The notes under the pieces: generated by a model | What the model was told of the DNA's origin: nothing | Database searches by the model: none | What the model saw: the letters and a program-made list of their open reading frames with translations, nothing else | Shown: positions 35,920 through 48,230 of the stretch, in pieces | How positions within the stretch are numbered: the stretch's first letter is position 1 | Layout of the letters: the number at the start of each line of letters is the position of its first letter | Source: Streptomyces antimycoticus | GTDB taxonomy: Bacteria > Actinomycetota > Actinomycetes > Streptomycetales > Streptomycetaceae | Assembly: GCF_005405925.1 (NCBI RefSeq) | Contig: NZ_BJHV01000001.1 | Coordinates: 2,232,001-2,296,000, forward strand | Direction: 5' to 3' | DNA: 64,000 bases | Translations under genes and position numbers: made by a program

Positions 35920-37017
35920 TCACGAGAGGACTTCCCCCAGGCAGGGGTAGTCGGTGTAGCCGCGGTGGTCGCCGCGGTAGAACGTGGTCTCGTCGGCCTC
36001 GGCGAGCGGCGCGCCCAGGCGGAGGCGGTGCACGAGGTCGGGGTTGGAGATGAACAGCGTCCCGAACGAGAGGATGTCCGCCAGCCCGTCGTCGACCAGG
36101 CGCAGTTGCCGGGGGTCGGCGGGCCAGTCGTGGTGGGTCTCGTGCGGATTGAGCATGAACACTCCTGCCCAGTGCTCCCGCAGTTTCACCGTGAGGTCGC
36201 GGTGGCCCGGAAACTCGAATACGTGCAGGTAGGCCAGGCCGCGTGGCAGACCGTCGACCAGGGTCGGGTAGAGCTCGTGCAGATCCGGCTCTTCGAGGCC
36301 GAACGCGGTGCAGCCAGGGGAGATCCGCAGTGCGAGCCGCTCGGCTCCGATGCGCGCGGCGACGGCATCGACGAGGTCGAGCGGGAACCGGACGCGCCCG
36401 GCGACGCTGCCGCCGTAGCGGTCGGTGCGGCGGTTGGCGTTGCCGGAGAGGAACTGCTGAATGAGGTAACCGTAGGCTCCATGCAGTTCGACACCGTCGA
36501 ACCCGGCGTCGATCGCGTTCGCGGCCGCATCGGCGAAGTCGGCGATGGTATCCGCGATGCCCTGCATGGTCAGGGCTTGCGGTATCGGGTACGGCTTGCG
36601 CACGGCCGGTTCGCCGCCGTGGACGCGCACGACGCCTTCGGCGGCACACGCGGACGGCGCGAGCGGGTGCAGCCCGCCACCGAGGAGTTCGGGGTGGCTG
36701 TTACGACCGGCGTGCATGAGCTGTGCGTAGATCCGGCCGCCCGCGTCGTGCACGGCGTCGGTGACCGGGCGCCAGGACGCGACCTGCGCCGTGTCGTGCA
36801 GGCCGGGGGTGTCGGTATAGCCCTGGCCGACACGACTGGGTTGGGCGGCTTCGGCGACGATCAGCCCGGCCGTCGCGCGCTGCCGGTAGTACTCGGCCAT
36901 GAGCGGGGTCGCTGACAGGCCGTCGCCATAAGCGCGGCGGCGGGTCAGCGGGGCCATGGCGACACGGTTGGGCAGGGTAAGCGGTCCGATGGTGATCGGG
37001 TCGAATGCGTTGGGCAT
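35920..37017 (-). CDS. Old yellow enzyme-type ene-reductase
   Basis: 365 residues from ATG 37017. FMN-dependent TIM barrel of the OYE/NemA group: PITIGPLTLPNRVAMAPLTR, IYAQLMHAGRNSHPELL, DAGFDGVELHGAYGYLIQQF, RTDRYGGSVAGRVRFPLDLV. These enzymes reduce activated C=C bonds with NADPH. In the HGAYGYL motif the second substrate-binding residue, normally Asn or His, is Tyr, while the catalytic Tyr of GYL is kept. This should alter ligand hydrogen bonding. An Lrp-family gene lies directly upstream on the same strand with repeated sequences between. Confidence 0.88.
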   Translation of the reverse strand: MPNAFDPITIGPLTLPNRVAMAPLTRRRAYGDGLSATPLMAEYYRQRATAGLIVAEAAQPSRVGQGYTDTPGLHDTAQVASWRPVTDAVHDAGGRIYAQLMHAGRNSHPELLGGGLHPLAPSACAAEGVVRVHGGEPAVRKPYPIPQALTMQGIADTIADFADAAANAIDAGFDGVELHGAYGYLIQQFLSGNANRRTDRYGGSVAGRVRFPLDLVDAVAARIGAERLALRISPGCTAFGLEEPDLHELYPTLVDGLPRGLAYLHVFEFPGHRDLTVKLREHWAGVFMLNPHETHHDWPADPRQLRLVDDGLADILSFGTLFISNPDLVHRLRLGAPLAEADETTFYRGDHRGYTDYPCLGEVLS

Positions 37018-37105
37018 CGGGAGTTCTTTCTCGAAGGGATGTGTTCTCGTGCCCCGCCACAATCCCCTCGCGCTGAGCCCCGCGGCAGGAACACCGTTTC
37101 ACTGG

Positions 37106-37149
37106 GCGCTATCCGACACGAAGGGCCTCGTACGCAGCGCTATCCGACA
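37106..37149. promoter_or_regulatory. Two direct 13-base repeats between lrp-like and ene-reductase genes
   Basis: GCGCTATCCGACA occurs at 37106-37118 and again at 37137-37149, 31 bases apart (three helical turns). The second overlaps the stop of the Lrp-like gene. In front of the ene-reductase gene they could be binding sites for that regulator. Repeats are certain, role inferred. Confidence 0.45.
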
Positions 37150-38102
37150 ATCGGAGACGCCCCCTTGACCACCCGCATACTCGGCGCGGTCTCCACCGAC
37201 AGCAGCCCGGGCAATGCCGCCACCGAGCCCGTCAGATACTCGTACAGCGCCGTGCCAGTGGGGCACTGCACGCTCGCGTACAGGTTGGACACACCGGTGG
37301 TGGCAGCCGCGAAGCTCACCTGCGGATGCTCCGCCAGCGCCGCACCCGCGGCCGCCAGCTCACCCGGCGCGACCGTCAGCCACAACCCCGCCGACGTCCG
37401 CGACCCCAGCAACGCCGGGTCGACATCGACATCGAAGTACACCACCCCGCCCGAGCGCAGCTCCGCCAGCCGCCGCCGCACAATCGTCTGCGACCAGCCC
37501 GTCGCCGTGGCCAGCGACCGGAACCCGGCCCGCCCGTCCAGCGCGAGCGCCTCCAGCAACGCGTTGTCCTCCGTCGACAGTTCCACCGGCCCGATCACGC
37601 GTTTCGCCGCCGGCGGCGACAACTGCGCGCACTGCTCCGCCGTGAGCGGCCCGTTCTTCGTCAGCGGACTCTCACTTCCGCCGAAGAACAGGTGCAGCGC
37701 GCGGTGCGCACTCACCCCGGTGACCCGGGGCGTGCGGGGCAGGCGAGACAGCACGGTCGACTCCGCGGCCGGCGTGTCCGTCACCGCCTGAACCATGCAC
37801 AGGACCTCCGCGCCGCCCGAGGCGATCTGCACCCACGACGTCTCCGCCTGCTTCGCCAGCGCTCGCGCGAGCCCCGCCACCGCCTCCGGTACGCACCGCA
37901 CCCGCACCAGCCACAACTGCCGCCCCACCGCCTCCGGCCACACCGCACCGGTCACCCGAACGCCCGCCTCGTTCCGCAGCCGCGCGTACCGGCGCGCCAC
38001 TGTCTGGTCCGAAACCCCCAGCACCGCACCGACCAGCGAGAACGCGACCCGCCCATCGATCTGGAGCGCCTGCAGCAGCCCACGTTCAACCGCGTCCAAC
38101 AT
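37140..38102 (-). CDS. Double-domain Lrp/AsnC-family regulator
   Basis: 320 residues from ATG 38102 (ATG 38129 is possible). It contains two Lrp units: HTH 1 (LDAVERGLLQALQIDGRVAF, VSDQTVARRYARLRNEAGV) with its ligand domain, then HTH 2 (TEDNALLEALALDGRAGFRS, WSQTIVRRRLAELRSGGVV) with a second ligand domain. Streptomyces carry several such tandem Lrp proteins. Same strand as the ene-reductase, 122 bases apart, so it may control it through the direct repeats between. Effector unknown. Confidence 0.85.
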   Translation of the reverse strand: MLDAVERGLLQALQIDGRVAFSLVGAVLGVSDQTVARRYARLRNEAGVRVTGAVWPEAVGRQLWLVRVRCVPEAVAGLARALAKQAETSWVQIASGGAEVLCMVQAVTDTPAAESTVLSRLPRTPRVTGVSAHRALHLFFGGSESPLTKNGPLTAEQCAQLSPPAAKRVIGPVELSTEDNALLEALALDGRAGFRSLATATGWSQTIVRRRLAELRSGGVVYFDVDVDPALLGSRTSAGLWLTVAPGELAAAGAALAEHPQVSFAAATTGVSNLYASVQCPTGTALYEYLTGSVAALPGLLSVETAPSMRVVKGASPIVG

Positions 38103-38224
38103 GTGTCCCGTCCTACCGATCCGACTCATCCGGCGCGCCCCGTGGGCTCCCCGTACCGGCCACGCCTGATGGGCTCCGCTAACTACGTATCAGGGTTGAT
38201 GCTCCAGTCTCGACCGCCGTTGAG

Positions 38225-38320
38225 ACTGGCCTGGCCTTATACGACAGACCGCTGGCCGACGGGGGTGCTGTGCGTCGATGAGTTCGGCCCGCAACTCGGC
38301 CAAGGGTGGTTGACAAAGCC
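38225..38320 (+). pseudogene. IS630-type transposase scrap
   Basis: The frame VLCVDEFGPQLG matches the conserved VxCVDEFGP motif around the second catalytic Asp of IS630-family transposases. Nothing else of the gene is recognisable. Confidence 0.3.
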
Positions 38321-38407
38321 CAGCGACGGCGATCTTCGCGGGGGGTACGTGGGTCCGACGCGTCACGGTTACGGCCTGATCGACGGGGGCCGCATCCGAG
38401 GGTCAGG

Positions 38408-39144
38408 TCACCAGGGGACGACCCCGTTGTCGTCGAAGAGCTGGCCGGTCGGGCCGTCGTCCGGCAGGGTCGCCAGCCGGATGGCGATCGCCGCGCCCTG
38501 CTCGGGGTCTGGGTCCCGCTGAATCCGTTGAGGTCGGTGGCCACGTAACCAGGGCAGGCGTTGTTGATCAGGATGCCGGTGCCGCTCAGCTCCTTGGCGT
38601 ACTGGATGGTGATGGCGTTGAGGTAGGTCTTCGTCGGCGCGTAGGCCCCGCTGATCCCCCCGAGGTCGACACCGGGCGTGGTCTGCAGGGTCAGGGAGCC
38701 GACATGGCTGGACTGGTTGACGATCCGCGGGTGCGCCGAACGGCGCAGCAACGGCAGCATCGCATTGGTGACCCTGATGACGCCGATGCCGTTGGTCTCC
38801 ACCAGCCGCCGCACGGTGTCGAGGTCGAGGGTCGAGGGTTCCTCCGGCCAGCCGCCGGCCACGCCGGCGTTGTTGACCAGTACGTCCAGCCGCCCCGCAC
38901 GCTCCTCGATCAGTTGCACCGCGGCGATCACGCTCTCGTCGTCGGTCACGTCCAGAGGCACGCCGAAGGCGTCGGCACCAGCCGCGCGCAACTTCGCCAC
39001 GGCGTCCTCCCGGCGCTGCTCGTCCCGGGCGCCGACGCCGACACTCCAGCCCCGCGCACCGAGCCCGGCCGCGATCTCGTACCCGATTCCCTTGTTCGCG
39101 CCAGTGACCAGCGCGATCGTTTTCTCGTTCACGACAGCGAGCAT
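38408..39144 (-). pseudogene. SDR oxidoreductase with a 3' frameshift
   Basis: Good SDR sequence from ATG 39144: IALVTGANKGIGYEIAAGLG, DVLVNNAGVAGG, YAPTKTYLNAITIQYA, NNACPGYVATDLNGF. After that the reading frame slips; the expected end continues in another frame as QGAAIAIRLATLPDDGPTG and FDDNGVVPW followed by a stop at 38408. A single indel near 38520 explains it, so the gene is either recently broken or contains a sequencing error. Divergent from a LysR gene, its probable regulator. Confidence 0.75.
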
Positions 39145-39237
39145 GCCCGCGCTGCGGCCGGGCACCAACACCTACTCGGTCGTGCAGAAATACCCGAACG
39201 ATATCGATCAGCCGTGAGCCGTCATTAGCCTGGGCGC

Positions 39238-40077
39238 ATGGAAATACGCGAGCTGCGGTACTTCGTCGCCGTCGCCGAGGAGCTGCACTTCGGCAAGGCT
39301 GCCCAGCGCCTTGGGATAGCCCAGCCGCCCCTGTCCCGCACGATCACCCAGCTCGAACGGCGGCTCGGAATCGCACTGCTGGAACGCACCAGCCGCAAGG
39401 TCACGCTCACCGAGGCCGGAGCCGTGCTGCTGGCCGAAGGACACGCGATCCTCAGCGCGGTGACCGCGGCTGAGCGGCATACTCAACAGGCCGCGACAGC
39501 ACACCCCAGCCTCGTCCTCGCCGTCAAAACCGGCACCGCCGGCGAGCTGCTGACCAAACTGCTCGACGCCTACGCCGCGGAACCCGGCGCAGCCACCGTC
39601 GATCTGCTGCTCTGCGAGGCACACCAGCACCAGCAGCTGCTGCAGGACGGGCAAGCCGACGTGGCGCTGCTCCACCTGCCCTTCGACTCAGCAGCCGGGC
39701 TCGACACCGAAACCCTGTACACAGAGGGACAGGTTGCGATCCTGCCGGCCGCACACCCGCTCGCCGGCCGCTCCCAGGTCCGGATGGCCGACATCACCAC
39801 CCTGCCAACCCTCCCGATGGCCCGCTGGCCCGGCCCCGGCGGCAGCTACCCAGAAGGACCGGGCGCAGAGGTACGGAACCTGACGCAGCTCTTTCAGCTG
39901 ATCGCGCTTGGCCGTACCACCGTGGTCATTCCCGAGTCCGCCGCCGCCGACCTGCGCCGGGACCTCGCCGCCGTGCCGGTCCTGGATGCCCCGCCCGTGA
40001 CAACGGTGATCGCCTGGCCGCCGCGCAGCCGCCTTCGTGCAGTTGCCGACCTGATCCGCGTGGCAACACGTCTTTGA
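39238..40077 (+). CDS. LysR-family transcriptional regulator
   Basis: 279 residues from ATG 39238. Winged helix-turn-helix at residues 1-60 (MEIRELRYFVAVAEELHFGK, QPPLSRTITQLERRLGIALLERT), then a shortened periplasmic-binding-type effector domain. It is divergent from the frameshifted SDR gene, so that enzyme was probably its target. The 93-base gap contains no palindrome as clear as the one at 26845. Effector unknown. Confidence 0.9.
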   Translation: MEIRELRYFVAVAEELHFGKAAQRLGIAQPPLSRTITQLERRLGIALLERTSRKVTLTEAGAVLLAEGHAILSAVTAAERHTQQAATAHPSLVLAVKTGTAGELLTKLLDAYAAEPGAATVDLLLCEAHQHQQLLQDGQADVALLHLPFDSAAGLDTETLYTEGQVAILPAAHPLAGRSQVRMADITTLPTLPMARWPGPGGSYPEGPGAEVRNLTQLFQLIALGRTTVVIPESAAADLRRDLAAVPVLDAPPVTTVIAWPPRSRLRAVADLIRVATRL

Positions 40078-40470
40078 ACCCGGACGAGGAGGGCGGGAGC
40101 CGGATTGCCCAGGATGTCCCGGGCCTGGAGGTGCGTGCGGATGGACCCGGCGAAGGTGGGGGCCTGGGCCGCGGCGTGGATCGCTCCCGGCCGGCCCTGA
40201 GATTCCGGTTCCGGCGGCGAGTTCGTCGTGGAGGGTGGTGAGGGTGTCGGCGGTAGCCCGGGCGGTTTCGATGTCGAGTAGCTCGTGGATGCCGCCGCGG
40301 CCGCGGGCTCATGGTGGAGTCGGGTATGGGAACTGTCCGAATGCCTGCTGCATCAAGGCTCACGCGTCGGCCGGTCCACGGCATAGGCGGCCCAGTCGTT
40401 GGCTGATGCTTTGTGAGCGACCGGGAAACCCATGCGACCGCTGTCGGCGGGCGGTGCGAGACTCAGCCCC
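40078..40470. other. Region without a recognised gene
   Basis: The minus strand contains a short helical-looking frame (HELLDIETARATADTLTTLH) and the phrase RTHLQARDILGNPAP, but I cannot link these to a family and there is no intact start or end. Probably the residue of another gene. Confidence 0.4.
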
Positions 40471-41064
40471 ATGAAGCCCAATGACCCTAAAGATGACCTG
40501 CACCGCTACCTCAAGGCAGCCCGCGAAGCCGTCGTCTGGAAGCTGGACGGACTGTCCGAGTACGACGTCCGCCGCCCCCTGACACCGACCGGCACCAACC
40601 TTCTCGGCCTCGTCAAGCACCTCGCCAGCGTCGAACTCGGGTACTTCGGCCCAACCTTCGGCCGCCCGCACAACGAATCCCTCCCCTGGCACGAGGAGAA
40701 CGCCGAGCCCAACTCGGACATGTGGGCACCCGCCGACGAGTCGCGCGAGGATATCCTCAGCCTCTACCACCGCGCCTGGGCGCACGCGGACGCGACGATC
40801 GAGGCGCTGCCACTCGATGCGATGGGCCACGTCGCGTGGTGGGGCGACAACGACGGCGTGACGCTTCAGCGGATCATGCTGCATATGACGGCCGAGACGA
40901 ACCGTCACGCCGGCCACGCCGACATCGTCCGCGAACTGATCGACGGCAAGGTTGGCATGCGGGAAACCAACAGCAACATGGATGGTGGCGACGCGGCCTG
41001 GTACGAGGAGTACTGGAACAAGCTGGAGGCGTCTGCCAAGGAGGCGCAGGCCAAGCCGAGCTGA
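40471..41064 (+). CDS. DinB/DUF664-family protein
   Basis: 197 residues from ATG 40471. Four-helix bundle with the spaced metal ligands of the DinB superfamily: LGLVKHLASVELGYFG (first His), ADATIEALPL, and MLHMTAETNRHAGHADIVRE (two His on the third helix). Family members bind a divalent metal and include mycothiol- or bacillithiol-dependent transferases. A thiol transferase role is plausible in an actinomycete but not shown. It is complete, and no operon partner is evident. Confidence 0.85.
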   Translation: MKPNDPKDDLHRYLKAAREAVVWKLDGLSEYDVRRPLTPTGTNLLGLVKHLASVELGYFGPTFGRPHNESLPWHEENAEPNSDMWAPADESREDILSLYHRAWAHADATIEALPLDAMGHVAWWGDNDGVTLQRIMLHMTAETNRHAGHADIVRELIDGKVGMRETNSNMDGGDAAWYEEYWNKLEASAKEAQAKPS

Positions 41065-41139
41065 ACGGAGTTCGTTCGGGGAGGTGGGGGCTTGCTTTGG
41101 CAGCTCGCGTTGTTGCCACCTCCCCACCCCCATCTCATG

Positions 41140-41500
41140 TCGAGCATCCGGGCGAGGATCGCGGCGGGCACTTCCGTTCTCGCTGTCGATGGTGCTGAGC
41201 GGGCCGGTCCAGCGGACGGTGGCGTAGGTCAGGTCACGGGAATGCCGCTGCTGTACCGACCAGCGGACGAAGCGGCCGGTCTCGTCGCGGTAGCTGACCG
41301 TGGGGTCGGCCATCCAGCGTTCCAGGTCCGTCTGGGTGCAGGTCCCCAGTGTGAGCCCTCCGCCGCCGGGCCAGTCGAGGAGGTTTGTCGCCCCCGGCGA
41401 CGCGCGCCGCTGACCCGGCTGCCACAGCCGTGCCCTGCCGTGGAACCACACCACGGCCAGACGCGTACCGCTGCCCGCCACCGCTCCGGGCGCCCACGCC
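41140..41500 (-). pseudogene. XerC/D-like site-specific recombinase fragment
   Basis: Minus-strand frames read GATNLLDWPGGGGLTLGTCT then QTDLERWMADPTVSYRDETG, RFVRWSVQQRHSRDLTY, VRWTGPLSTIDSEN, matching the N-terminal core-binding region of a Streptomyces tyrosine recombinase. The catalytic domain is gone. It ends about 35 bases before the leader peptide described next. Confidence 0.6.
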
Positions 41501-41522
41501 GCCCGGGGCACAGTCGGTCCGC

Positions 41523-41528
41523 TATTAT
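41523..41528 (+). promoter_or_regulatory. Possible -10 box for a leaderless leader peptide
   Basis: TATTAT, unusual in this GC-rich DNA, lies six to seven bases before the ATG of the short leader ORF, so transcription could begin at or next to the start codon. No good -35 element is visible. Confidence 0.35.
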
Positions 41529-41534
41529 CAAGGC

Positions 41535-41573
41535 ATGTGCTGCTGTGCTCCCATGACAACAACCGCCGCTTAG
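41535..41573 (+). CDS. Twelve-residue Cys-rich leader peptide
   Basis: ATG TGC TGC TGT GCT CCC ATG ACA ACA ACC GCC GCT TAG encodes MCCCAPMTTTAA. Three consecutive Cys codons, a run of Thr codons and a stop inside the loop of the first of three hairpins make it look like an attenuator leader. Actinobacteria are known to use poly-Cys upstream ORFs for cysteine-responsive attenuation, and leader ORFs with hairpins also control drug-resistance genes by ribosome stalling. It precedes a P-loop kinase gene by 143 bases. Too short for homology; called from context only. Confidence 0.5.
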   Translation: MCCCAPMTTTAA

Positions 41574-41628
41574 CGGCGGTACCGCGGTTCCTGTAACCGC
41601 GGCCATTGCCTGCCCCCGCATGGGGCAG
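41562..41628 (+). promoter_or_regulatory. Three consecutive hairpins, probable attenuator
   Basis: Hairpin 1: ACCGCCGC-TTA-GCGGCGGT (41562-41580), overlapping the end of the leader ORF. Hairpin 2: CCGCGGTT-CCTGT-AACCGCGG (41582-41602). Hairpin 3: CTGCCCC-CGCAT-GGGGCAG (41610-41628). The 3' arm of hairpin 1 (GCGGT) can also pair with the 3' arm of hairpin 2 (ACCGC), so the structures compete. A ribosome finishing the leader would melt hairpin 1; one stalled on the Cys codons would not. All stems are perfect. Confidence 0.6.
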
Positions 41629-41715
41629 TGCCAGGACGTACCGCCGGATCAGTGTCCTGCCGGCAGTCACTCGTATTCCTGTGACGCCGGGTCGTCCTGC
41701 CTGATCAGGGAAGTC

Positions 41716-42318
41716 ATGTCTCAGTCGCAGCGTTTCGATTCACAGCATCCGCATGCAGCCGGACCCAGCGTTACGCAACACCCACGTGCTGCCATCCTGC
41801 TCCTGATGGTCGGTCTCCCCGGCGCTGGGAAAACCACCCGCGCCAAAGAGCTCGCCGCAACCCACCGGGCGCTGCGGCTGACCCCAGATCACTGGATGAT
41901 CCCGCTGTTCGGCGATTCGATGGCCGACGGCAAGCGCTGGGTGCTCGAAGGGCGGCTCATCTCGGTCGCCCTACAGGCGCTGAGGCTGGGGACCAGCGTC
42001 GTGCTCGACTTCGGGCTCTGGAGCCGCGATGAACGGTCGGCGCTGCGCTGGCTGGCCCGGTCGGTCGGGGCATCATGCCAGGTGGTGTATCTGCCCGTGG
42101 ACAAGGACGTCCAGCTCGCCCGCGTCGCGCACCGCCAGGACACAACACCGCATCAAACGTTCCCGATGAGCGAGGCCGACCTGGATGCCTGGCGGGAGCA
42201 GTTCCAGGTGCCTGACGCCGCCGAACTCGACGGCGGCGAGATTCCCGCCCCACCGGCGGGCTGGCCGGGCTGGCCGGAGTGGGCGGCAGACAAATGGCCC
42301 TCGTGTACCGACAGCTAA
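41716..42318 (+). CDS. P-loop kinase-like ATP-binding protein
   Basis: 200 residues from ATG 41716 (AGGG upstream); the open frame reaches back to 41620 but through the hairpins. Walker A MVGLPGAGKTT (residues 31-41), a DHWMIPLFGD lid-type segment, Walker-B-like VVLDFGLWSRDERSALRWLA, then VVYLPVDKDVQLARV and RVAHRQDTTPHQTF. This is the compact AAA_33/zeta-toxin-like kinase fold that includes small-molecule phosphotransferases such as chloramphenicol phosphotransferase. With an attenuator-like leader, antibiotic modification is a reasonable but unproven idea. Substrate unknown. Confidence 0.75.
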   Translation: MSQSQRFDSQHPHAAGPSVTQHPRAAILLLMVGLPGAGKTTRAKELAATHRALRLTPDHWMIPLFGDSMADGKRWVLEGRLISVALQALRLGTSVVLDFGLWSRDERSALRWLARSVGASCQVVYLPVDKDVQLARVAHRQDTTPHQTFPMSEADLDAWREQFQVPDAAELDGGEIPAPPAGWPGWPEWAADKWPSCTDS

Positions 42319-42724
42319 CCTGGCCGGGCCGCCAATCGGTCACCGACCTTCGGTGATCACGCTCAACCCGCTGCGACTGGCCGGAGACTCGCTTCCGCCT
42401 CGCGGCTTCCGGTCCGAGAAGTACCCGATAGCGTCGCAGGCAGGCGTCACACGGTGACGCCTGCTGAACGCGAACGCCTCCGCCACACCCTCGTGCGGCT
42501 CCGGGGCGAGCAGTACCGGATGTCCGAGCGTTTCCGGTTACCGAGCGGGCTGTCGCCGGCGTACCAGACAGCCCCGTACTCCGGACAGCGGAACCGGAGC
42601 CACGGGTGCCTCCGGCCCTCGACCAGAGCCGGGTATGCCTCCCCGGTTATGTTCTTCGCGGTCCGGCAAGAGGGCCGCTGGCCTCCGGCCCGGCATGACT
42701 GTTCCCCCCTGTCGAAGGGATGAC

Positions 42725-43335
42725 CTGGGAGCCGTCTTCGACAAGCTGGCCGCAGAGTTCGGCACCGTCCAGGTCATCGTGGACCAGCCCGCCTCGATCG
42801 GCGCCCTGCCCTGACCGTCGCCCGGGACGCGGGCTGCAAGGTCGCCTACCTACCCGGGCTCGCGATGCGGCGGATCGCCGACCTCTACCCGGGTGAGGCG
42901 AAGACCGACGCGAAGGACGCCGCGGTGATCGCGGACGCCGCCCGGACGATGCCACACACCCCGCGCTCGCTGGAACCGACCGACGAGATCACCGCCGAGC
43001 TGACTGTGCTGGTGGGCTTCGACCAGGATCTCGCGGCCGAGGCCACCCGCACCTCCAAACGGATACGAGGCCTGCTCACCCAGTTCCACCCCAGCCTGGA
43101 GCGGGTCCTCGGCCCGCGTCTGGGCCATCAGCCCGTGACCTGGCTGCTGGAACGCTACGGATCCCCGGCCGCCCTGCGAAAGGCCGGCCGACGCAGGCCG
43201 GCTGAGGTGATCCGGCCCAAGGCCCCACGCATCACACAAGCTCTTCTCCGCCTGGCCCGACACCGCATCAGCGTGCTGTTCGCCATGCTCCGCGGCGGCA
43301 TCTTCTACCAACCCGGACCACCCCGCCTCATTTGA
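42725..43335 (+). pseudogene. IS110-family transposase remnant
   Basis: Frames read VFDKLAAEFGTVQVIVDQPA, then after a frame change VARDAGCKVAYLPGLAMRRI and ADLYPGEAKTDAKDAAVIAD, the DEDD-type IS110 catalytic domain. The C-terminus ITQALLRLARHRISVLFAML and RGGIFYQP is joined directly after RPKAP, so most of the Transposase_20 domain is deleted. The first Asp and the N-terminus are also missing. Confidence 0.75.
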
Positions 43336-43469
43336 CGAAAGACGGAGGGGGTGGCTGGTACCGGAGTGGTGACCCTGCACCCGCCGATCCACCGCACGGG
43401 TACCGGATCACTCCGGGCAGGGAGGCTTCGGGCATGTGTTTCTCACTCACGCCGTGATGGGTTCCTAGC

Positions 43470-43755
43470 TCAGAGCGCCCGCAGGCCGTGCTCCCTGAAC
43501 TGCTCGCGCACCCGTTCCGTCAGGTCCGGGGGCGGCGCGGGTGTGTCGCGCAGGGGGAAGGGGATCCCCAGCGCGTCGTACTTATGGGCGCCCAGCTTGT
43601 GGAACGGCAGGATGTCCACCCGGTCGAGGTTGCCCAGACCGGCGAGGAACCCGCCGAGCCCGTCGACGGCCAACGAGTCGTCGGTCCAGCCGGGCACGAG
43701 GACATAGCGGATCCACACCGGAACGCCGAGCCGGTCCAGGCGGGTGGCGAAGCTG
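43470..43755 (-). pseudogene. Pyruvate formate-lyase activating enzyme, C-terminal fragment
   Basis: The frame WIRYVLVPGWTDDSLAVDGL, then LGNLDRVDILPFHKLGAHKY and ALGIPFPLRDTPAPPPD matches the C-terminal third of the radical-SAM activase PflA, with its natural stop at 43470. The iron-sulfur CxxxCxxC motif and N-terminus are missing. Upstream it is joined directly, out of frame, to the N-terminus of pyruvate formate-lyase, so a single deletion removed the space between. Confidence 0.75.
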
Positions 43756-43756
43756 A

Positions 43757-44076
43757 GGGTCGGTCTGAAGGCCGACGATCAGCTCCCGGTCGCGGTCGAT
43801 GAAGCCAGGGGCGTGCGAGATGATCGTGGACGGGGTGGCGGTGTCCACGTCGTAGACGCCCCGTCGCCGCTCCTCGGGGAACGGGGCGGCCACCTTGCCC
43901 CAGACGGCTAGCGTGCGCTCGGTCGGCCCGGCCAGGAACGTGGAATCGCCGTCGTACGGGGTGTAGTTGGCCTGGATGAAGTCACGCACGTCGACCTGGC
44001 CCCGCCAGCGCGTACCGCTGAAGCCTCGCCATGCCTCGGTCGCCGCCCGGTGCCCGTCTGTCACCGTCACCGTCAT
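43757..44076 (-). pseudogene. Pyruvate formate-lyase, N-terminal fragment
   Basis: From ATG 44076: DGHRAATEAWRGFSGTRWRG, VDVRDFIQANYTPYDGD, FLAGPTERTLAVWGKV, GVYDVDTATPSTIISHAPGF, IDRDRELIVGLQTD. This is the start of formate acetyltransferase (PflB). After GLQTD the sequence enters the PflA C-terminus in another frame. Some 650 residues, including the glycyl-radical site, are gone. A Dev-box-like palindrome remains 121 bases upstream, so it was probably an OsdR target. Confidence 0.78.
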
Positions 44077-44196
44077 CGCCGGTCTCTCCCTCACTCCGCC
44101 CGCGGAACTTCTGCGCTTCGCATGCTCGTCGCTCGCGATGGCCGCCTGGAGGGCCTCTCGGCGCACCTGTGGCGCGCCATCCGTCCCTCTTATGCC

Positions 44197-44210
44197 GGGC
44201 TGCAGGTCCC
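44197..44210. promoter_or_regulatory. Dev-box-like site upstream of the broken pflB
   Basis: GGGCT-GCAG-GTCCC, one base off GGGnC-N4-GnCCC, lies upstream of the minus-strand pflB fragment. The same imperfect left half occurs at 31422. Confidence 0.35.
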
Positions 44211-44298
44211 TGCCGGGACGGCCCCCCTTCCCATCGCCTGCCCTCAGGACGCGCCCATGGGCTGCTCCGCAGCCTGGTCTGTGGCAGCGCAAACGGCC

Positions 44299-44330
44299 GG
44301 GGCACCTCCGCCAACGAGCGGAGGTGCCCC
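44299..44330 (-). terminator. Strong hairpin terminator
   Basis: GGGGCACCTCCGC-CAACGA-GCGGAGGTGCCCC, a perfect 13-bp stem with a 6-base loop, lies 22 bases beyond the stop of the minus-strand DoxX gene. No U-run, as is usual for Streptomyces. Confidence 0.7.
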
Positions 44331-44351
44331 GGTCCGAGGAGCATCCGGCCC

Positions 44352-45025
44352 TCAGAGGAGCCAGCGGTTGCGGCTGACGAAGGGCAGCCGCGCCCACACC
44401 CCGCCCAGCCCCCAGGTTGCGCCGGCGCCCGCGGCTGCGAGTGCGATGAGGACGACGGCATAGATGAGGTGGTAGTCGGCGAATGGGTTGGTCGACGCGC
44501 TCGCCGTGCCGTCGGACAGGTGCTTGGCCGGCGGCCACTCGGCGAGCCACATCAATCCCATCATCGCGGTGCCGCCCACCGCGGCGAGCCGCAGGCCGAT
44601 GCCCGCGATCAGGGCGAGGCCGACGCCGAGCATGCCGAGCATGAACAGCCAGTCCGCCCAGGCGGCCCCAGCCGCCTGGGCGGACTCCATGGGGCCGGCC
44701 AGGCGGCCCCAGCCCAATCATGAAAGGTGGACTCCATGGGGCCGGCCGCGACGCCGCTGAGGAAGCCCTTGGTGGGCGAGCCGCCGTCGATCCAGCCCTC
44801 GCCGGAGCCGGTGGCGTAGCCGAAGCCGAAAGTCTTGTCCAGGAACGCCCACAGGAAGACAAACCCGGTCAGGAAACGCAGCCCGGCGAACGCGTACGCA
44901 CCGGTCGCCGTCGCGGCGGCGATCGTCTCCTCGCCGGGGGCGGGGGCAGTCCCGGCCTTGTGCAGGAAGGGGAAGCGGAATCCGCGGTACCGGTGGGGGT
45001 GGCCATGCAGTGCCATAATGCTCAT
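44352..45025 (-). pseudogene. DoxX-family protein broken by a 41-bp templated insertion
   Basis: From ATG 45025 the frame encodes a DoxX-like membrane protein: FAGLRFLTGFVFLWAFLDKT, GSGEGWIDGGSPTKGFLSG, GPMESTFHDWAGAAW. It then shifts; the rest continues in another frame as AAWADWLFMLGMLGVGLALI, MMGLMWLAEWPPAKHLSDG and PFADYHLIYAVVLIALA up to the stop at 44352. The break is exactly a 41-base insertion at 44672-44712. The intact paralogue at 47601 shows the original order. It should have four helices; DoxX proteins are linked to redox and thiol stress. Confidence 0.85.
44672..44712 (-). repeat. 41-bp templated insertion with a 15-bp inverted copy
   Basis: The inserted DNA makes the perfect inverted repeat GTCCGCCCAGGCGGC-CCCA-GCCGCCTGGGCGGAC (44652-44685), then repeats TCCATGGGGCCGGCC from 44731-44745, then repeats AGGCGGCCCCAG from 44660-44671. 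All parts are copies of sequence within 60 bases, as expected from polymerase template switching. Length 41 is not a multiple of three and breaks the DoxX frame. Confidence 0.8.
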
Positions 45026-45129
45026 CCCTTTCGAGGGCTGTGACGCGCAGGATGTCGACGACTCTCGTTGCTCCTTCAATGTCCCGCGTCGTCCACGCGC
45101 GCCGGAGGGGGCTGTGGGTCCCGGGCGAC

Positions 45130-45143
45130 GGACCGAACGTCCC
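45130..45143. promoter_or_regulatory. Dev-box-like site upstream of the broken doxX-like gene
   Basis: GGACC-GAAC-GTCCC, one base off GGGnC-N4-GnCCC, 105 bases upstream of the minus-strand DoxX start. Confidence 0.35.
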
Positions 45144-45149
45144 GCTCCT

Positions 45150-45610
45150 CGGGTCCACTTGGAGCCGCTCCACTGTCCCGGACCGCTAGTTCCAGCACGT
45201 GGTCGGCGATGCAACTGTGCGGCGGCTGGCACCCCCGGGTGAGCAGATCGCCTACGCAGGCGAGGACCACGTCCGGTTCACGGCTGCCGTCCCGGATGCC
45301 GGCCCAGCCCCAGATGCCGACGTCACACGCGCGCGGCGGACATTGGCCTGTTCCATGGACAGCCAGTCGAATCAGGGCTTCCATCCCGCCATGATCCCGG
45401 CTGCGCGGCACATGGCCGGCCACCGACAACGAGGAGATGACGCCCGGCAGACCCCGGGTCCCGGTGGGGAAGAAGCCGTTGCGGTCCCGGCGCCACACGC
45501 GCGAGGTCAGCACACATGGCTGACCATCGAGTGACGATGTGCGCGAGTGCCTCGTAGCAGGAGGACAGCCCGGGCCGGTCGAGGTGCGCGTCCAGAGCCG
45601 ACCGGGCCAT
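45150..45610 (-). pseudogene. Phosphoketolase C-terminal remnant
   Basis: Pieces in three frames follow the order of xylulose-5-phosphate phosphoketolase: SCYEALAHIVT, LTSRVWRRDRNGF, GVISSLSVAGHVPRSRDHGG, CPWNRPMSAARV (in-frame equivalent SMEQANVRRA), and DVGIWGWAG followed by REPDVVLACVGDLLT. These match the XFP region just before and within its last domain. Multiple frameshifts, no N-terminus and no end. It was an acetyl-phosphate-forming enzyme of sugar fermentation. Confidence 0.65.
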
Positions 45611-45632
45611 CCGCTCAACCGCGGTGCCCGCA

Positions 45633-46475
45633 TCAGGCCGTCGGCACCAGGACCACCGGGCAGTGGGAGTGGTGCAACAGGGTGTGCGCGACCGGACCGA
45701 GCCGACCCGCCCGGCGGTGCGCACCGATGATCACGACACCGGCCCCGCTGCTGGCCGCCAGCAGGGCATGGGCCAGGCCGGTGCGGACCGCGCGGCTGTC
45801 GACGTCGACCTCGGGGCACTCCTCCCGCAATCGGGCGATACTGAACCGCTCGACGGCTTCCTCCGCCCGGTGATTGCGCGCCTTGCGCTGCCGGTCGGGG
45901 CTCACCACGGGTACCAGCGAGGGCGGTTCGGATGTGATGTGCCGGTGCGTTTCGGATGTGATGTGCCGGTGCGTTGCGGAGTGCAGGACGCGTAGCCGGG
46001 TCCCGCGACGCTCGGCCTCCTGGAAGGCGTAGGCGGCTGCGTCCGCGTCGGCGTTGCTTTCCAGGCCGAGCAGTACCTCGCGCCCGTTGACGCAGGGGTG
46101 GTCCCCTCGGACGACGAGCAGCGGACCGTGCGCGTGTGCGGCCAGCCGCAGACTCACCGAGCCGACCAGCAGGCCGGTGACACCGCCGAGCCCCCTGGTG
46201 CCCACGACGGTGAGGACGGCCCTCTCGCTCTCCCGCGCCATCGCCCGCACGGTGCCGCCCTCCACCGCCCGGGTCTCCACGGGAAGATCGGGATGACGCT
46301 GGTGGACCCGTGCGGCGGCCGAGGCCAGAACCGGCCCAGCCTCGTCTCGGTCGGTCACGGCGTACACGATGCGCAACGCGGTGCCGCGGCGCAACGCTTC
46401 CTCGGTGGCCCAGTCCAGCGCCCGTACAGCAACCACCGAGCCGTCGACACCGACGGCCACATGACGGAAAGTCAC
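45633..46475 (-). CDS. Two-domain universal stress protein
   Basis: 280 residues from ATG 46475. Domain 1: VAVGVDGSVVAVRALDWATE and the ATP-loop LTVVGTRGLGGVTGLLVGSV. Domain 2: VLLGLESNADADAAAYAFQE and VVIIGAHRRAGRLGPVAHTL ending CPVVLVPTA. This tandem form is typical of OsdR/DosR regulons and binds ATP in the cytosol. A perfect 24-base duplication adds a second THRHITSE early in domain 2, lengthening a surface region without breaking the frame. A Dev-box-like site lies 190 bases upstream. Confidence 0.85.
   Translation of the reverse strand: MTFRHVAVGVDGSVVAVRALDWATEEALRRGTALRIVYAVTDRDEAGPVLASAAARVHQRHPDLPVETRAVEGGTVRAMARESERAVLTVVGTRGLGGVTGLLVGSVSLRLAAHAHGPLLVVRGDHPCVNGREVLLGLESNADADAAAYAFQEAERRGTRLRVLHSATHRHITSETHRHITSEPPSLVPVVSPDRQRKARNHRAEEAVERFSIARLREECPEVDVDSRAVRTGLAHALLAASSGAGVVIIGAHRRAGRLGPVAHTLLHHSHCPVVLVPTA
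45927..45974 (-). repeat. Perfect 24-bp tandem duplication inside the stress-protein gene
   Basis: Two identical 24-base units beginning TTCGGATGTGATGTGCC encode THRHITSE twice in a row. The length preserves the frame. Confidence 0.93.
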
Positions 46476-46663
46476 GGTCTTGTTCCCTTCTCTTCATACG
46501 CGGGGTATGCAGCCCTCGTGGAACGAAGGGCCGTGGGCAGGCTCGCCGTCGGCCGACTGGGCGTCGATCCCGCGGCGGCTCCACAGCGATGTTCGTCGTC
46601 CACGACTCCTCCGGGCAGGGGCCGACAGAGCCCATCGATACGCCGTACGGCCCACGTGTTGCC

Positions 46664-46677
46664 GGGTCGACCGGTCC
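46664..46677. promoter_or_regulatory. Dev-box-like site upstream of the stress-protein gene
   Basis: Read on the minus strand: GGACC-GGTC-GACCC, one base off GGGnC-N4-GnCCC, the same left half as the site at 45130. Confidence 0.35.
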
Positions 46678-46747
46678 GGCCGGCCGACCAGTCCAGGGCC
46701 CGGATCCGGACGGGAGGAGAGGAGACGGGAAGGATGAAAGGGGACGT

Positions 46748-47176
46748 TCAGACGGTGGGGTCCACTCCGTACAGGGTGCCTCCGCCGCCGAGTTCACGCC
46801 CAGTGGCCGGTCGGGGCTCGACACGGGCGAAGGCCTCCTGGGGTTGAGAGCACCCCGGAGGCCAGAACGGTGCGGGCCAGACGTTCGTCCTCGGCGGGTC
46901 GATCACCACCGTGGCCGTGCCGGTGACGACGACGCCCAAGCCGGAGTGCCGGACCGCATCGACGTCGTCGACCTCGAAGGCAACCATCGCGCCGTCGATC
47001 GCGCGGTGTCGGGACACCAGAGACGCGCGCCTTCCGCTCATCGGCCGCCGGTCGGCACCCCGCACAGAGCGGGCTCGTCAGCCGCCCGCCAAGTCAACGG
47101 CCCGCAGACTCGGCTCGGAGCCGTCCACCTCCCCGGCCAACGGGAGTTCCATAGTGCCGCGCTGTGCCTCGTTCAT
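46748..47176 (-). pseudogene. Pyridoxamine-5'-phosphate-oxidase-like protein, frameshifted
   Basis: From ATG 47176 the start MNEAQRGTMELPLAGEVDGS stops at 47078, while the following part RASLVSRHRAIDGAMVAFEV, then DDVDAVRHSGLGVVVTGTAT and FARVEPRPATGRELGGGGTL lies in another frame. Together they match the small FMN/F420-binding PNPOx-like proteins that are common in DosR-type regulons. A short deletion plus a frameshift removed the first beta strands. Confidence 0.6.
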
Positions 47177-47208
47177 GATGGCTTCAGCTAGAGGGAATCG
47201 GGAGAGCG

Positions 47209-47530
47209 TCAGTCGTGCGCGACGACAGCGACGGGGGCGGTGGCGGTGGCGGTGGCGTGATGCAGCATGGCCTGTGTGACAGGGCCGATGTGACCGCCGA
47301 GCGGGCTGCGGCGGCCGACAACGACCAGGGACGCCTCTTGGTAGGCGTCGGCCAGGTGGACGGCGGAACTGCAGGAACGGGACTCCTCCATGACCTCGAC
47401 GGCCGGGTACTTCTCCTTCCAGCGGTGCAGCACCTCGGCCAGCGTGGCAGCGTCCTGCTTGCCGAGCACAACGTCGAGCTCGGGGTCGCTGGGCACGCCG
47501 TGGGCGAAGTACGGCGGGGGGTCCAGGCGT
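47209..47530 (-). pseudogene. Universal stress protein, C-terminal half only
   Basis: The frame PPPYFAHGVPSDPELDVVLG, then LHRWKEKYPAVEVMEESRSC and VVVGRRSPLGGHIGPVTQAM ending APVAVVAHD is the second domain of a tandem USP, with its natural stop. The first domain and start are missing, replaced by the terminator of the DoxX gene. Confidence 0.75.
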
Positions 47531-47553
47531 GGATGACCCGGAGTGGTGTGACA

Positions 47554-47589
47554 CGGCGGGCCTACCGCACCGGTGCGGTAGGCCCGCCG
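47554..47589. terminator. Perfect 36-base palindrome, probable terminator
   Basis: CGGCGGGCCTACCGCA-CCGG-TGCGGTAGGCCCGCCG, fully self-complementary, sits 12 bases beyond the stop of the minus-strand DoxX gene. It works equally in both directions. Confidence 0.75.
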
Positions 47590-47600
47590 CACGGCGGTGT

Positions 47601-48230
47601 TCAGCGCAACCATCCGTTGCCACGGACGAACGGGAGCCGGGCCCAAAGCCGTCCGAGGCCGAGAGTGTCGCCGGCGGATGCGACAGCGAGGGCGAGGAGC
47701 ACCGCGGCGTAGACGAGGTGGTAGTCGGCGAACGGGTTCGTCGACATGCTCGGGGAGCCGTCCGACAGGTGCTGGGCCGGTGGCCACTCGGCCATCCACA
47801 TCAGCGCCATCATCACGGTGCCCGCGAATGCCGCCAGGCGCAGGGCCACCCCGGCGGTCAGCGCGAGGCCAATGCCGAGCAGACCCAGCATGAACATCCA
47901 GTCCGCCCAGGCGGCGCCGGCCCATCCGTGGAAGGTGGACTCCATCGGTCCGACTGCGACGTGTCCGAGGAAGCCCCCGGTGGGCGAGCCGCCGTCGATC
48001 CAGCCCTTGCCGGAGACGGTGGAGTAGCCGAGGCCGAAGGTCTTGTCGAGGAAGGCCCACAGGAAGACGAAGCCCATCAGCAGGCGCGCCGAGGCGAAGA
48101 CGTAGGCCCGTGCGGTGCGGATGCCGCTGTGCGCCCACGCGGCGGACTCGGCCGCGGCAGCAGCCCGGTTCCCGCGGAAAAATGGCAGGTGGGAACCCGC
48201 ACTACGGTGGGAGTGCTCGTGCACGGCCAT
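47601..48230 (-). CDS. DoxX-family membrane protein
   Basis: 209 residues from ATG 48230 (AAGGGA upstream). Four hydrophobic helices: AYVFASARLLMGFVFLWAFL, AAWADWMFMLGLLGIGLALT, RLAAFAGTVMMALMWMAEW and HLVYAAVLLALAVASAGD. The N-terminal 40 residues are His-rich (VHEHSHRSAGSH) and may bind metal. It is the intact paralogue of the broken copy at 44352. DoxX-like proteins are tied to oxidative and thiol stress. A Dev-box-like palindrome lies 124 bases upstream, and a strong palindromic terminator follows the gene. Confidence 0.85.
   Translation of the reverse strand: MAVHEHSHRSAGSHLPFFRGNRAAAAAESAAWAHSGIRTARAYVFASARLLMGFVFLWAFLDKTFGLGYSTVSGKGWIDGGSPTGGFLGHVAVGPMESTFHGWAGAAWADWMFMLGLLGIGLALTAGVALRLAAFAGTVMMALMWMAEWPPAQHLSDGSPSMSTNPFADYHLVYAAVLLALAVASAGDTLGLGRLWARLPFVRGNGWLR

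Follow-up and report, generated by a model that had tools for sequence, protein, structure and literature searches.

A leader-peptide RNA switch before a small P-loop kinase gene: a conserved, apparently mobile actinobacterial cassette and a proposed stall-dependent attenuator

Does the short open reading frame (ORF) that precedes a small P-loop kinase gene of Streptomyces antimycoticus form part of a regulatory switch, and if so, what does the switch sense? The locus lies in a 64,000-nucleotide stretch of the forward strand (NZ_BJHV01000001.1, positions 2,232,001 to 2,296,000; source genome of 11,174,199 bases in 3 contigs), referred to as a whole as the window. All positions are counted from its first letter, and the elements of the locus lie on the plus strand. 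As judged from comparative sequence analysis, the best reading of the switch is stall-dependent attenuation of the drug-responsive type. Leader, switch and kinase apparently form a conserved, mobile cassette that has been passed between actinobacteria.

The region opens with a -10 box, TATTAT (41523-41528), located 6 nt 5' of the start codon of the leader ORF. The latter encodes the peptide MCCCAPMTTTAA in 12 codons followed by TAG (41535-41573; ATG TGC TGC TGT GCT CCC ATG ACA ACA ACC GCC GCT TAG). Codons 10-12 constitute arm 1 (41562-41569) of hairpin 1 (41562-41580), which has 8 perfect pairs and a 3-nt loop, and the stop codon spans this loop and the 3' arm (arm 2, 41573-41580). Two further perfect hairpins follow: hairpin 2 (41582-41602; 8 pairs, 5-nt loop) and hairpin 3 (41610-41628; 7 pairs, 5-nt loop). 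The original prediction, made from the letters of the window, had described a TATTAT box with a 12-codon poly-Cys ORF ending inside the first of three perfect hairpins, and this description proved accurate. The kinase gene itself, encoding 200 amino acids, starts with ATG at 41716 and extends to 42318; its Shine-Dalgarno sequence, recognized by sequence, is AGGGAAG (41707-41713). In dinucleotide-preserving shuffles of 41535-41715, at least two hairpins of 8 bp (loop 3-5) arose in 2 of 2000 cases and at least three hairpins of at least 7 bp in none of 2000. The folding z-score of 41530-41730 is -4.23, with 0 of 200 shuffles equally stable. Consequently, chance is a poor explanation for the hairpins. 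No leader or riboswitch family of Rfam 15 reached its gathering score in 41000-42000; the only matches, both sub-threshold, were two of CRISPR-DR20 to hairpin 1 (17.5 and 15.8 versus 42 bits).

The kinase was recovered at 65 loci from named genomes, and 25 of 41 related genomes contain it (E up to 0.001). A profile built from the upstream regions of 22 of these loci matches 46 of the 65 in whole or in part. An open leader ORF precedes the switch at 40 of the 65, in ten actinobacterial families whose genera include Streptomyces, Nonomuraea, Frankia, Kutzneria, Actinoplanes and Amnibacterium. Leader and hairpin 1 thus recur upstream of orthologues, where the original prediction had suggested looking for them. 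Coding tests and geometry were based on 42 open leaders, and the structural alignment on 43 rows. The 42 leaders encode 22 distinct peptides, among them MCCCAPMTTTAA, MCCCAAMTTRTAA, MCCCAAMNIRTAA, MCCPMTTRTAA, MCCCAMNIRTAA, MGCFAAMTTRTAA, MGCFALMAAPTAL, MGCSAMNIRTAA and MGCFACMEIRTAA. In all 42, the leader ATG and arm 1 are separated by a multiple of 3 nt, and gap runs in the leader part of the alignment are 3, 6 or 9 columns long. The ratio of nonsynonymous to synonymous change (pN/pS) is 0.33, compared with a column-shuffled mean of 0.99 (standard deviation 0.40; 0 of 60 shuffles as low). Because the frame is kept, the gaps are in frame and pN/pS is low, the leader is very probably a translated peptide under coding selection. 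A TAnnnT box stands 6 nt before the leader start (7 nt in four rows), and the first T, the A and the final T are invariant across the aligned rows. In actinobacteria, such spacing between a -10 box and an ATG suggests a transcript that starts at the ATG. Since only 6 nt separate box and start codon, the leader mRNA is probably leaderless, with transcription starting at or near the leader ATG.

The pairing of the RNA was assessed by consensus folding. RNAalifold pairs region 2 (CGGCGGTAC, 41574-41582), which can partner either arm 1 or region 3, with region 3 (GTACCGCCG, 41638-41646), and adds a conserved hairpin, P3 (41660-41690), between region 3 and the kinase ribosome-binding site. For these two elements together, 92.7% of cells are paired, and the number of doubly changed cells is 13 (5 + 8) compared with 2.7 in shuffles (0 of 500 as high). 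Four pairs of P3 carry double changes, and sliding the partners of region 2, region 3 or P3 lowers every measure. The region 2-region 3 helix alone is paired in 95.3% of cells, and in four rows its outer C-G pair is replaced by U-A; for hairpin 1, the paired share of cells is 96.2%. These patterns support a conserved, mutually exclusive pairing in which one arm lies inside the leader ORF. When region 2 is withheld, the consensus extends region 3 into the helix CC.GGATCAG / CTGATC.AGG (5' strand CCGGATCAG, 41644-41652; 3' strand CTGATCAGG, 41701-41709), which overlaps the kinase Shine-Dalgarno sequence, takes in its G residues and is paired in 93.2% of cells. In single-sequence ensembles with the leader free, the mean pair probability is 0.82 for hairpin 1 and 0.10 for region 2-region 3. 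Masking arm 1, as upon stalling, changes these values to 0 and 0.40, respectively. A further helix, which would join CATGAC near leader codon Met7 to GTCATG at the kinase start, has 8 doubly changed cells compared with 2.1 (0 of 500 as high); with an alignment that is uncertain near the start codon in divergent rows, pairing of the Met7 region with the kinase start is suggestive only.

The alternative pairing first proposed was between the arms of hairpins 1 and 2. The corresponding AACCGC/GCGGTT helix exists in the window, but all 6 pairs are present in only 11 of 43 rows, and the conserved alternative is instead that of the 3' arm of hairpin 1 with 41638-41646. The stems were likewise conserved in part: hairpin 1 is kept, but hairpins 2 and 3 are poorly kept. 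Hairpin 2 is paired in 269 of 327 cells with all pairs intact in 13 of 43 rows, and hairpin 3 in 191 of 231 cells with all pairs in 7 of 43 rows, being absent from some relatives. Both sit within the loop closed by region 2 and region 3 and may only bring these two together; hairpin 3 is perhaps dispensable. The helix CAGGACG/CGTCCTG (41632-41638 with 41693-41699) belongs to the best fold of the window copy, but was rejected as a conserved element (233 of 289 cells paired; complete in 6 of 43 rows). It is also necessary to consider that ORF and hairpins are by-products of a GC-rich intergenic stretch and have no regulatory function. A 12-codon ORF alone would be unremarkable, but conservation, in-frame indels, covariation and the hairpin excess all contradict this view, which is extremely improbable.

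What the switch senses depends on where a ribosome has to halt. In the geometric analysis, a ribosome was assumed to cover the RNA up to 15 nt past the first base of the P-site codon. A P-site codon was regarded as masking when at least 4 arm 1 bases are covered and region 2 is left free. Regardless of leader length, 39 of the 42 leaders place the first base of the stop codon 2 nt ahead of arm 2 of hairpin 1; the three exceptions lack that stop. At the loci L055, L067 and L088, the usual leader stop is lost and the ORF would cross hairpin 1 and region 2; their switch may be broken or altered. Masking falls to P-site codons 6-8 in 16 leaders (including that of the window) and to codons 7-9 in 23; two leaders use codons 5-7 and one uses codons 10-12. 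The three masking codons encode Met-x-x in 26 leaders, Pro-Met-Thr in 12 and Val/Leu/Thr-x-x in the remaining 4. All leaders but one (41 of 42) have Ala, Ser or Thr ahead of a masking codon, a context described in an excerpt of PMC8066774 as a condition for chloramphenicol arrest. This context fits a chloramphenicol-like drug, and a single upstream ORF (uORF) can answer several drug classes (excerpt of PMC12121999).

The same geometry bears on the proposal that the leader responds to Cys-tRNA, in which a shortage of Cys-tRNA would stall ribosomes at the Cys run and switch the kinase on. In 28 of 42 leaders, codons 2-4 all encode Cys; TGC stands at codon 3 throughout (42 of 42), and leaderless poly-Cys ORFs of mycobacteria are cysteine attenuators (Canestrari 2020, as cited in an excerpt of PMC9031893). 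The leader resembles those attenuators in being short, leaderless and Cys-rich, but differs in its N-terminal Cys run, the single Cys in 7 of 42 leaders, the lack of a cysteine gene and the conserved alternative pairing. In the actinobacterial cys operon leaders, the Cys run is located near the stop (excerpt of PMC1262725), whereas here it occupies codons 2-4. Moreover, none of the 42 leaders has Cys in the A site at a masking position; with this spacing, starvation for Cys would halt the ribosome too early and hairpin 1 would be left intact. Thirteen of the 42 leaders have only one (7) or two (6) Cys codons, and the downstream gene is no known cysteine gene, the kinase matching no cysteine-gene model of Pfam or NCBIfam. 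Because waiting for Cys masks arm 1 in none of the 42 leaders and 7 have a single Cys, cysteine control is very unlikely, and this part of the original prediction is not upheld. Threonine starvation, for which borrelidin serves as background (excerpt of PMC13410324), was also considered as a general trigger. Many leaders have Thr at codons 8-9; since others have Asn-Ile, Glu-Ile, Gln-Ile or Ala-Ala there, it is doubtful as a general cause.

The consequences of masking for the kinase start were estimated as the cost of opening its ribosome-binding site at 30 C. With the whole RNA free, opening costs a mean of 12.2 kcal/mol. With the leader masked through arm 1, the mean falls to 5.9 kcal/mol, opening being easier by more than 0.5 in 40 of 42 cases and harder in 2, counts that are not independent, as the aligned rows are related. 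Masking region 2 as well gives a mean of 7.9. When the state in which hairpin 1 is able to form is compared with that in which arm 1 is masked, the means are 7.4 and 5.9, and opening becomes cheaper by over 0.5 kcal/mol in 23 of the 42 sequences. If region 2 is shuffled, the masked value rises from 5.9 to 7.2; if arm 1 is shuffled, the unmasked value drops from 7.4 to 6.5. The energetics support the switch for the family on average and are equivocal for the window copy.

These energies also concern the possibility that the switch governs the passage of RNA polymerase, by transcription attenuation or Rho-coupled termination, and not the start of translation. Attenuation of ABCF resistance genes is often transcriptional (excerpt of PMC12421871). 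Hairpin P3 is conserved and GC-rich, and the energies of the window copy are without sign of start-site control. Region 3, on the other hand, continues into the helix with the Shine-Dalgarno sequence, and no hairpin followed by a T run occurs in 41400-42450. Since Streptomyces terminators can lack a T run, its absence does not settle the matter. Transcriptional control is unlikely on this evidence, yet it retains appreciable weight.

For the translational switch, the following course of events can be proposed. Transcription would begin at or near the leader ATG, and an undelayed ribosome would finish at the TAG inside hairpin 1 and depart. Hairpin 1 would then sequester region 2, region 3 would pair toward the Shine-Dalgarno sequence, and the kinase would be translated poorly. 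If the ribosome halts while codon 6, 7 or 8 (Pro-Met-Thr in the window copy) occupies the P site, it would cover arm 1 but not region 2; in many relatives, the equivalent halt would occur at Met-x-x, codons 7-9. Region 2 could then capture region 3, the helix over the ribosome-binding site would loosen, and the kinase would be made. The halted ribosome would also hide the leader stretch able to pair with the kinase start codon. The likeliest trigger would be a peptidyl-transferase or exit-tunnel antibiotic from soil competitors, and the likeliest role of the kinase would be relief of that stress, in the simplest case through phosphorylation of the drug. The scheme builds on conservation, coding selection, covariation, geometry with the assumed 15-nt footprint, and patchy spread; from these we infer the succession of steps, control at translation and not at transcription, the trigger and the substrate. 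Taken as a whole, that is, as a self-contained mobile cassette in which a drug-stalled leader ribosome frees translation of a stress-blunting kinase, it is the reading toward which we lean, by a modest measure.

The kinase itself belongs to the AAA_33 family (Pfam PF13671, E 6.6e-28; 98.2 bits versus a cut-off of 27). A Walker A motif is present, and G33, G38, K39, T40 and D58 are invariant over 29 kinase rows. The structure model has a mean predicted local distance difference test score (pLDDT) of 86, with residues 1-22 below 50. In fold comparison, the model resembles PSTK and polynucleotide kinases; sugar and sulfate kinases rank close. The original prediction of a small kinase of the fold that includes antibiotic phosphotransferases is correct as regards a small P-loop kinase, but the fold is not that of the classical aminoglycoside phosphotransferases. 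NCBIfam yielded only a sub-threshold homoserine kinase model and Pfam four families, none a resistance family. Chloramphenicol phosphotransferase is absent among the fold matches listed, and PADLOC gave one weak match, TRIP13 (E 0.0087).

These matches bear on two other roles of the gene product. With the same stall-sensing switch, the kinase could repair or modify RNA, acting on the 5'-OH of cleaved tRNA or rRNA, or on tRNA, in a response to damage or translation stress. The resemblance to PSTK and polynucleotide kinases is in its favour, but the matched folds represent the general P-loop kinase group, with sugar and sulfate kinases close behind, and no recurring repair partner adjoins the gene among ORFs of at least 120 aa. 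Such a role is possible but unlikely. A Zeta-like toxin, or another selfish single-gene element released when translation fails, could be suggested by the Pfam Zeta_toxin match just over its cut-off (24.3 versus 22.3 bits) and by an E. coli uORF that senses ribosome drugs and controls a toxin-antitoxin pair (excerpt of PMC12121999). AAA_33, however, is a far better fit (98.2 bits), and no recurrent partner gene was found among ORFs of at least 120 aa; this explanation is highly doubtful. For the favoured stress-blunting role, a precedent by description is GAR (garosamine-specific aminoglycoside resistance), a small P-loop kinase that confers resistance when expressed in E. coli (excerpt of PMC7085159). 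According to the same excerpt, GAR is a small P-loop NTPase with kinase features, lies outside the classical phosphotransferase fold and has spread horizontally, as the cassette kinase apparently has. It differs in its AAA_18 domain (pfam13238) and its location on integrons, and the excerpt mentions no leader switch, the two being compared by description only. In its most specific form, the proposal is that of an undescribed, mobile and inducible family of actinobacterial resistance kinases, every copy with its own drug sensor, in which a leaderless peptide with Met-x-x reads a ribosome-targeting product and the kinase inactivates it. This version is tentative, its chances falling somewhat short of even. 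Peptide variants such as MCCCAAMTTRTAA, MGCFAAMTTRTAA and MGCFALMAAPTAL might report different drugs of one class.

Several observations weigh against drug-triggered translational control with a resistance kinase as its output. An Ala/Ser/Thr context occurs commonly in peptides of this kind and does not prove that a drug is involved. Covariation is little in hairpin 1 (2 cells versus 0.7; 85 of 500 shuffles as high) and weak in the Shine-Dalgarno helix (2 cells versus 0.8; 92 of 500 as high). For a free leader, the RNAalifold consensus contains region 2-region 3 and lacks hairpin 1, whether computed from all 43 rows or from the 27 rows whose leaders are longer. When masking of arm 1 is compared with the state in which hairpin 1 can form, opening becomes harder by more than 0.5 in 9 of 42, the measured site being approximate in divergent rows, which have a shifted start codon. 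For the window copy, masking arm 1 acts in the wrong direction, raising the cost from 3.5 to 4.3 kcal/mol. Averaged over 7 nt, the probability that the Shine-Dalgarno sequence is unpaired changes little, from 0.31 free to 0.35-0.41 stalled. Finally, the nearest folds of the kinase act on RNA or metabolites, and no named resistance family of NCBIfam or Pfam matches it.

The cassette can be placed among known attenuators. The erm and cat translational attenuators comprise a short leader ORF, a hairpin arm within this ORF, an alternative pairing and a helix at the target ribosome-binding site. The cassette has the counterpart of each: leader ORF, arm in the ORF, region 2-region 3 alternative and predicted Shine-Dalgarno helix. 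It differs in that its leader is apparently leaderless and encodes another peptide, and in that it would control a P-loop kinase in place of a methyltransferase or acetyltransferase. The cassette most likely works like an erm-type attenuator. In Streptomyces, uORFs before resistance or regulator genes (are5sc, tiaA, lmrC, wblC) are inhibited by ribosome drugs (excerpt of PMC12421871). The excerpt describes stalling at the start codon and ABCF targets for the are5sc and tiaA uORFs, whereas masking in the cassette needs codons 6-9. In the LEU element of actinobacterial leuA, leader codons pair with the target Shine-Dalgarno sequence (excerpt of PMC1262725), and the cassette leader may similarly pair with the kinase start; the Leu codon run, pseudoknot and biosynthetic gene of the LEU element are unlike the cassette. 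For the toiL uORF of E. coli topAI, stalling is proposed to refold the next ribosome-binding site in response to several drug classes (excerpt of PMC12121999); its target is a toxin-antitoxin system, and that of the cassette a kinase. Neither the cassette leader nor the kinase is named among the matches listed from openly licensed PMC literature, as covered by titles and the starts of abstracts.

The limits of the cassette were determined by blastn of 36001-48000 against the kinase loci. They indicate a free-standing unit of about 0.8 kb (41517-42326) that comprises promoter, leader ORF, RNA switch and kinase. In close relatives, similarity mostly begins at 41515-41532 and ends at 42303-42382; at L037, L042, L048, L100 and L101, it reaches upstream to about 41390-41403, at L032 it runs from 41556 to 42511, and in divergent or leader-losing copies it begins later. 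The block shares 94.7% DNA identity with Nonomuraea cypriaca and 94.0% with Actinopolymorpha pittospori, and at these two loci nothing outside the block matches the window. No neighbour family besides the kinase occurs in more than 6 of the 65 loci (ORFs of at least 120 aa within 5 kb). A 28-base switch signature was found in 9 of 394 genomes of the window's family; 7, including the window's own, have leader and kinase, and 2 are without a kinase within 3 kb. Leader and kinase together thus occur in about 2% of the genomes of this family. In the class set, which partly overlaps the family set, the signature occurs in 6 of 394 genomes (including the window's), and the other 5 precede kinase sequence, one of them partial. 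The reversed control pattern gave no match. The signature at L108, around position 1500, has one mismatch, no leader and no kinase within 3 kb, and is probably a switch remnant. A 3-mismatch match at L107 was rejected as a switch without kinase, being probably due to chance.

A covariance-model scan of 396 genomes, a weak test with only 5 candidates scored per genome, recovered the window copy itself, a leader-bearing copy at a contig end (L098) and, at L099, a weak match (E 5.8e-4) that was rejected as probable chance. On 22 chosen loci, mostly switchless kinases, the model matched L032, L050, L091 and L098 below E 1e-3, followed by L092 (E 0.24) and L015 (E 0.4); the other 16 gave no match. 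Nine Streptomyces plasmid records carry relatives at 60-80% identity, none closer. A phage origin was rejected, as 50,697 phage records gave no match. In a tree of 62 kinases, the 11 switchless ones form one well-supported group (100/99), and L050, L058 and L061, which have lost the leader and kept the start-site stretch, sit among leader-bearing relatives (96/87). Given this placement of switchless and leader-losing copies, the switch travels with the kinase and is lost occasionally.

Individual copies illustrate the variation. L050, L058, L061 and L091 keep only the start-site stretch, having lost leader and hairpins, and are perhaps natural constitutive forms. L032 has lost the first half of the leader and kept the hairpins. 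The switchless sister group comprises L074, L075, L078-L083, L086, L087 and L089. Several of its members share another conserved upstream stretch, TTGTCCTCC..GTTTCC..GAACGAT, in a position compatible with a leaderless start at the kinase GTG. Two cassettes occur in Streptomyces sp. GQFP (L053, L054); they lie about 1 Mb from each other in opposite orientation, and their switch and kinase core are identical. The L106 copy is identical to that of S. coeruleorubidus (L040) over the stretch compared. In the surroundings of the window copy, a Mycothiol-S-transferase / DinB-like gene lies 5' of the cassette (40432-41064), with no DNA match among the compared kinase loci. On the 3' side of the kinase gene, L074 has a stretch with 85% identity to 42642-42729, and an IS110-type transposase fragment (profile positions 81-155 only) occupies 42865-43335.

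If the proposed scheme is true, the cassette would be a portable sensor and response unit for a translation inhibitor in ten actinobacterial families. Such leader peptides can be drug detectors; consequently, the inducer would name substrate candidates for the kinase family and could point to resistance missed by current family models. The study of leaderless translation in attenuation would also gain a useful example, namely a leaderless regulatory ORF coupled to a start-site switch.
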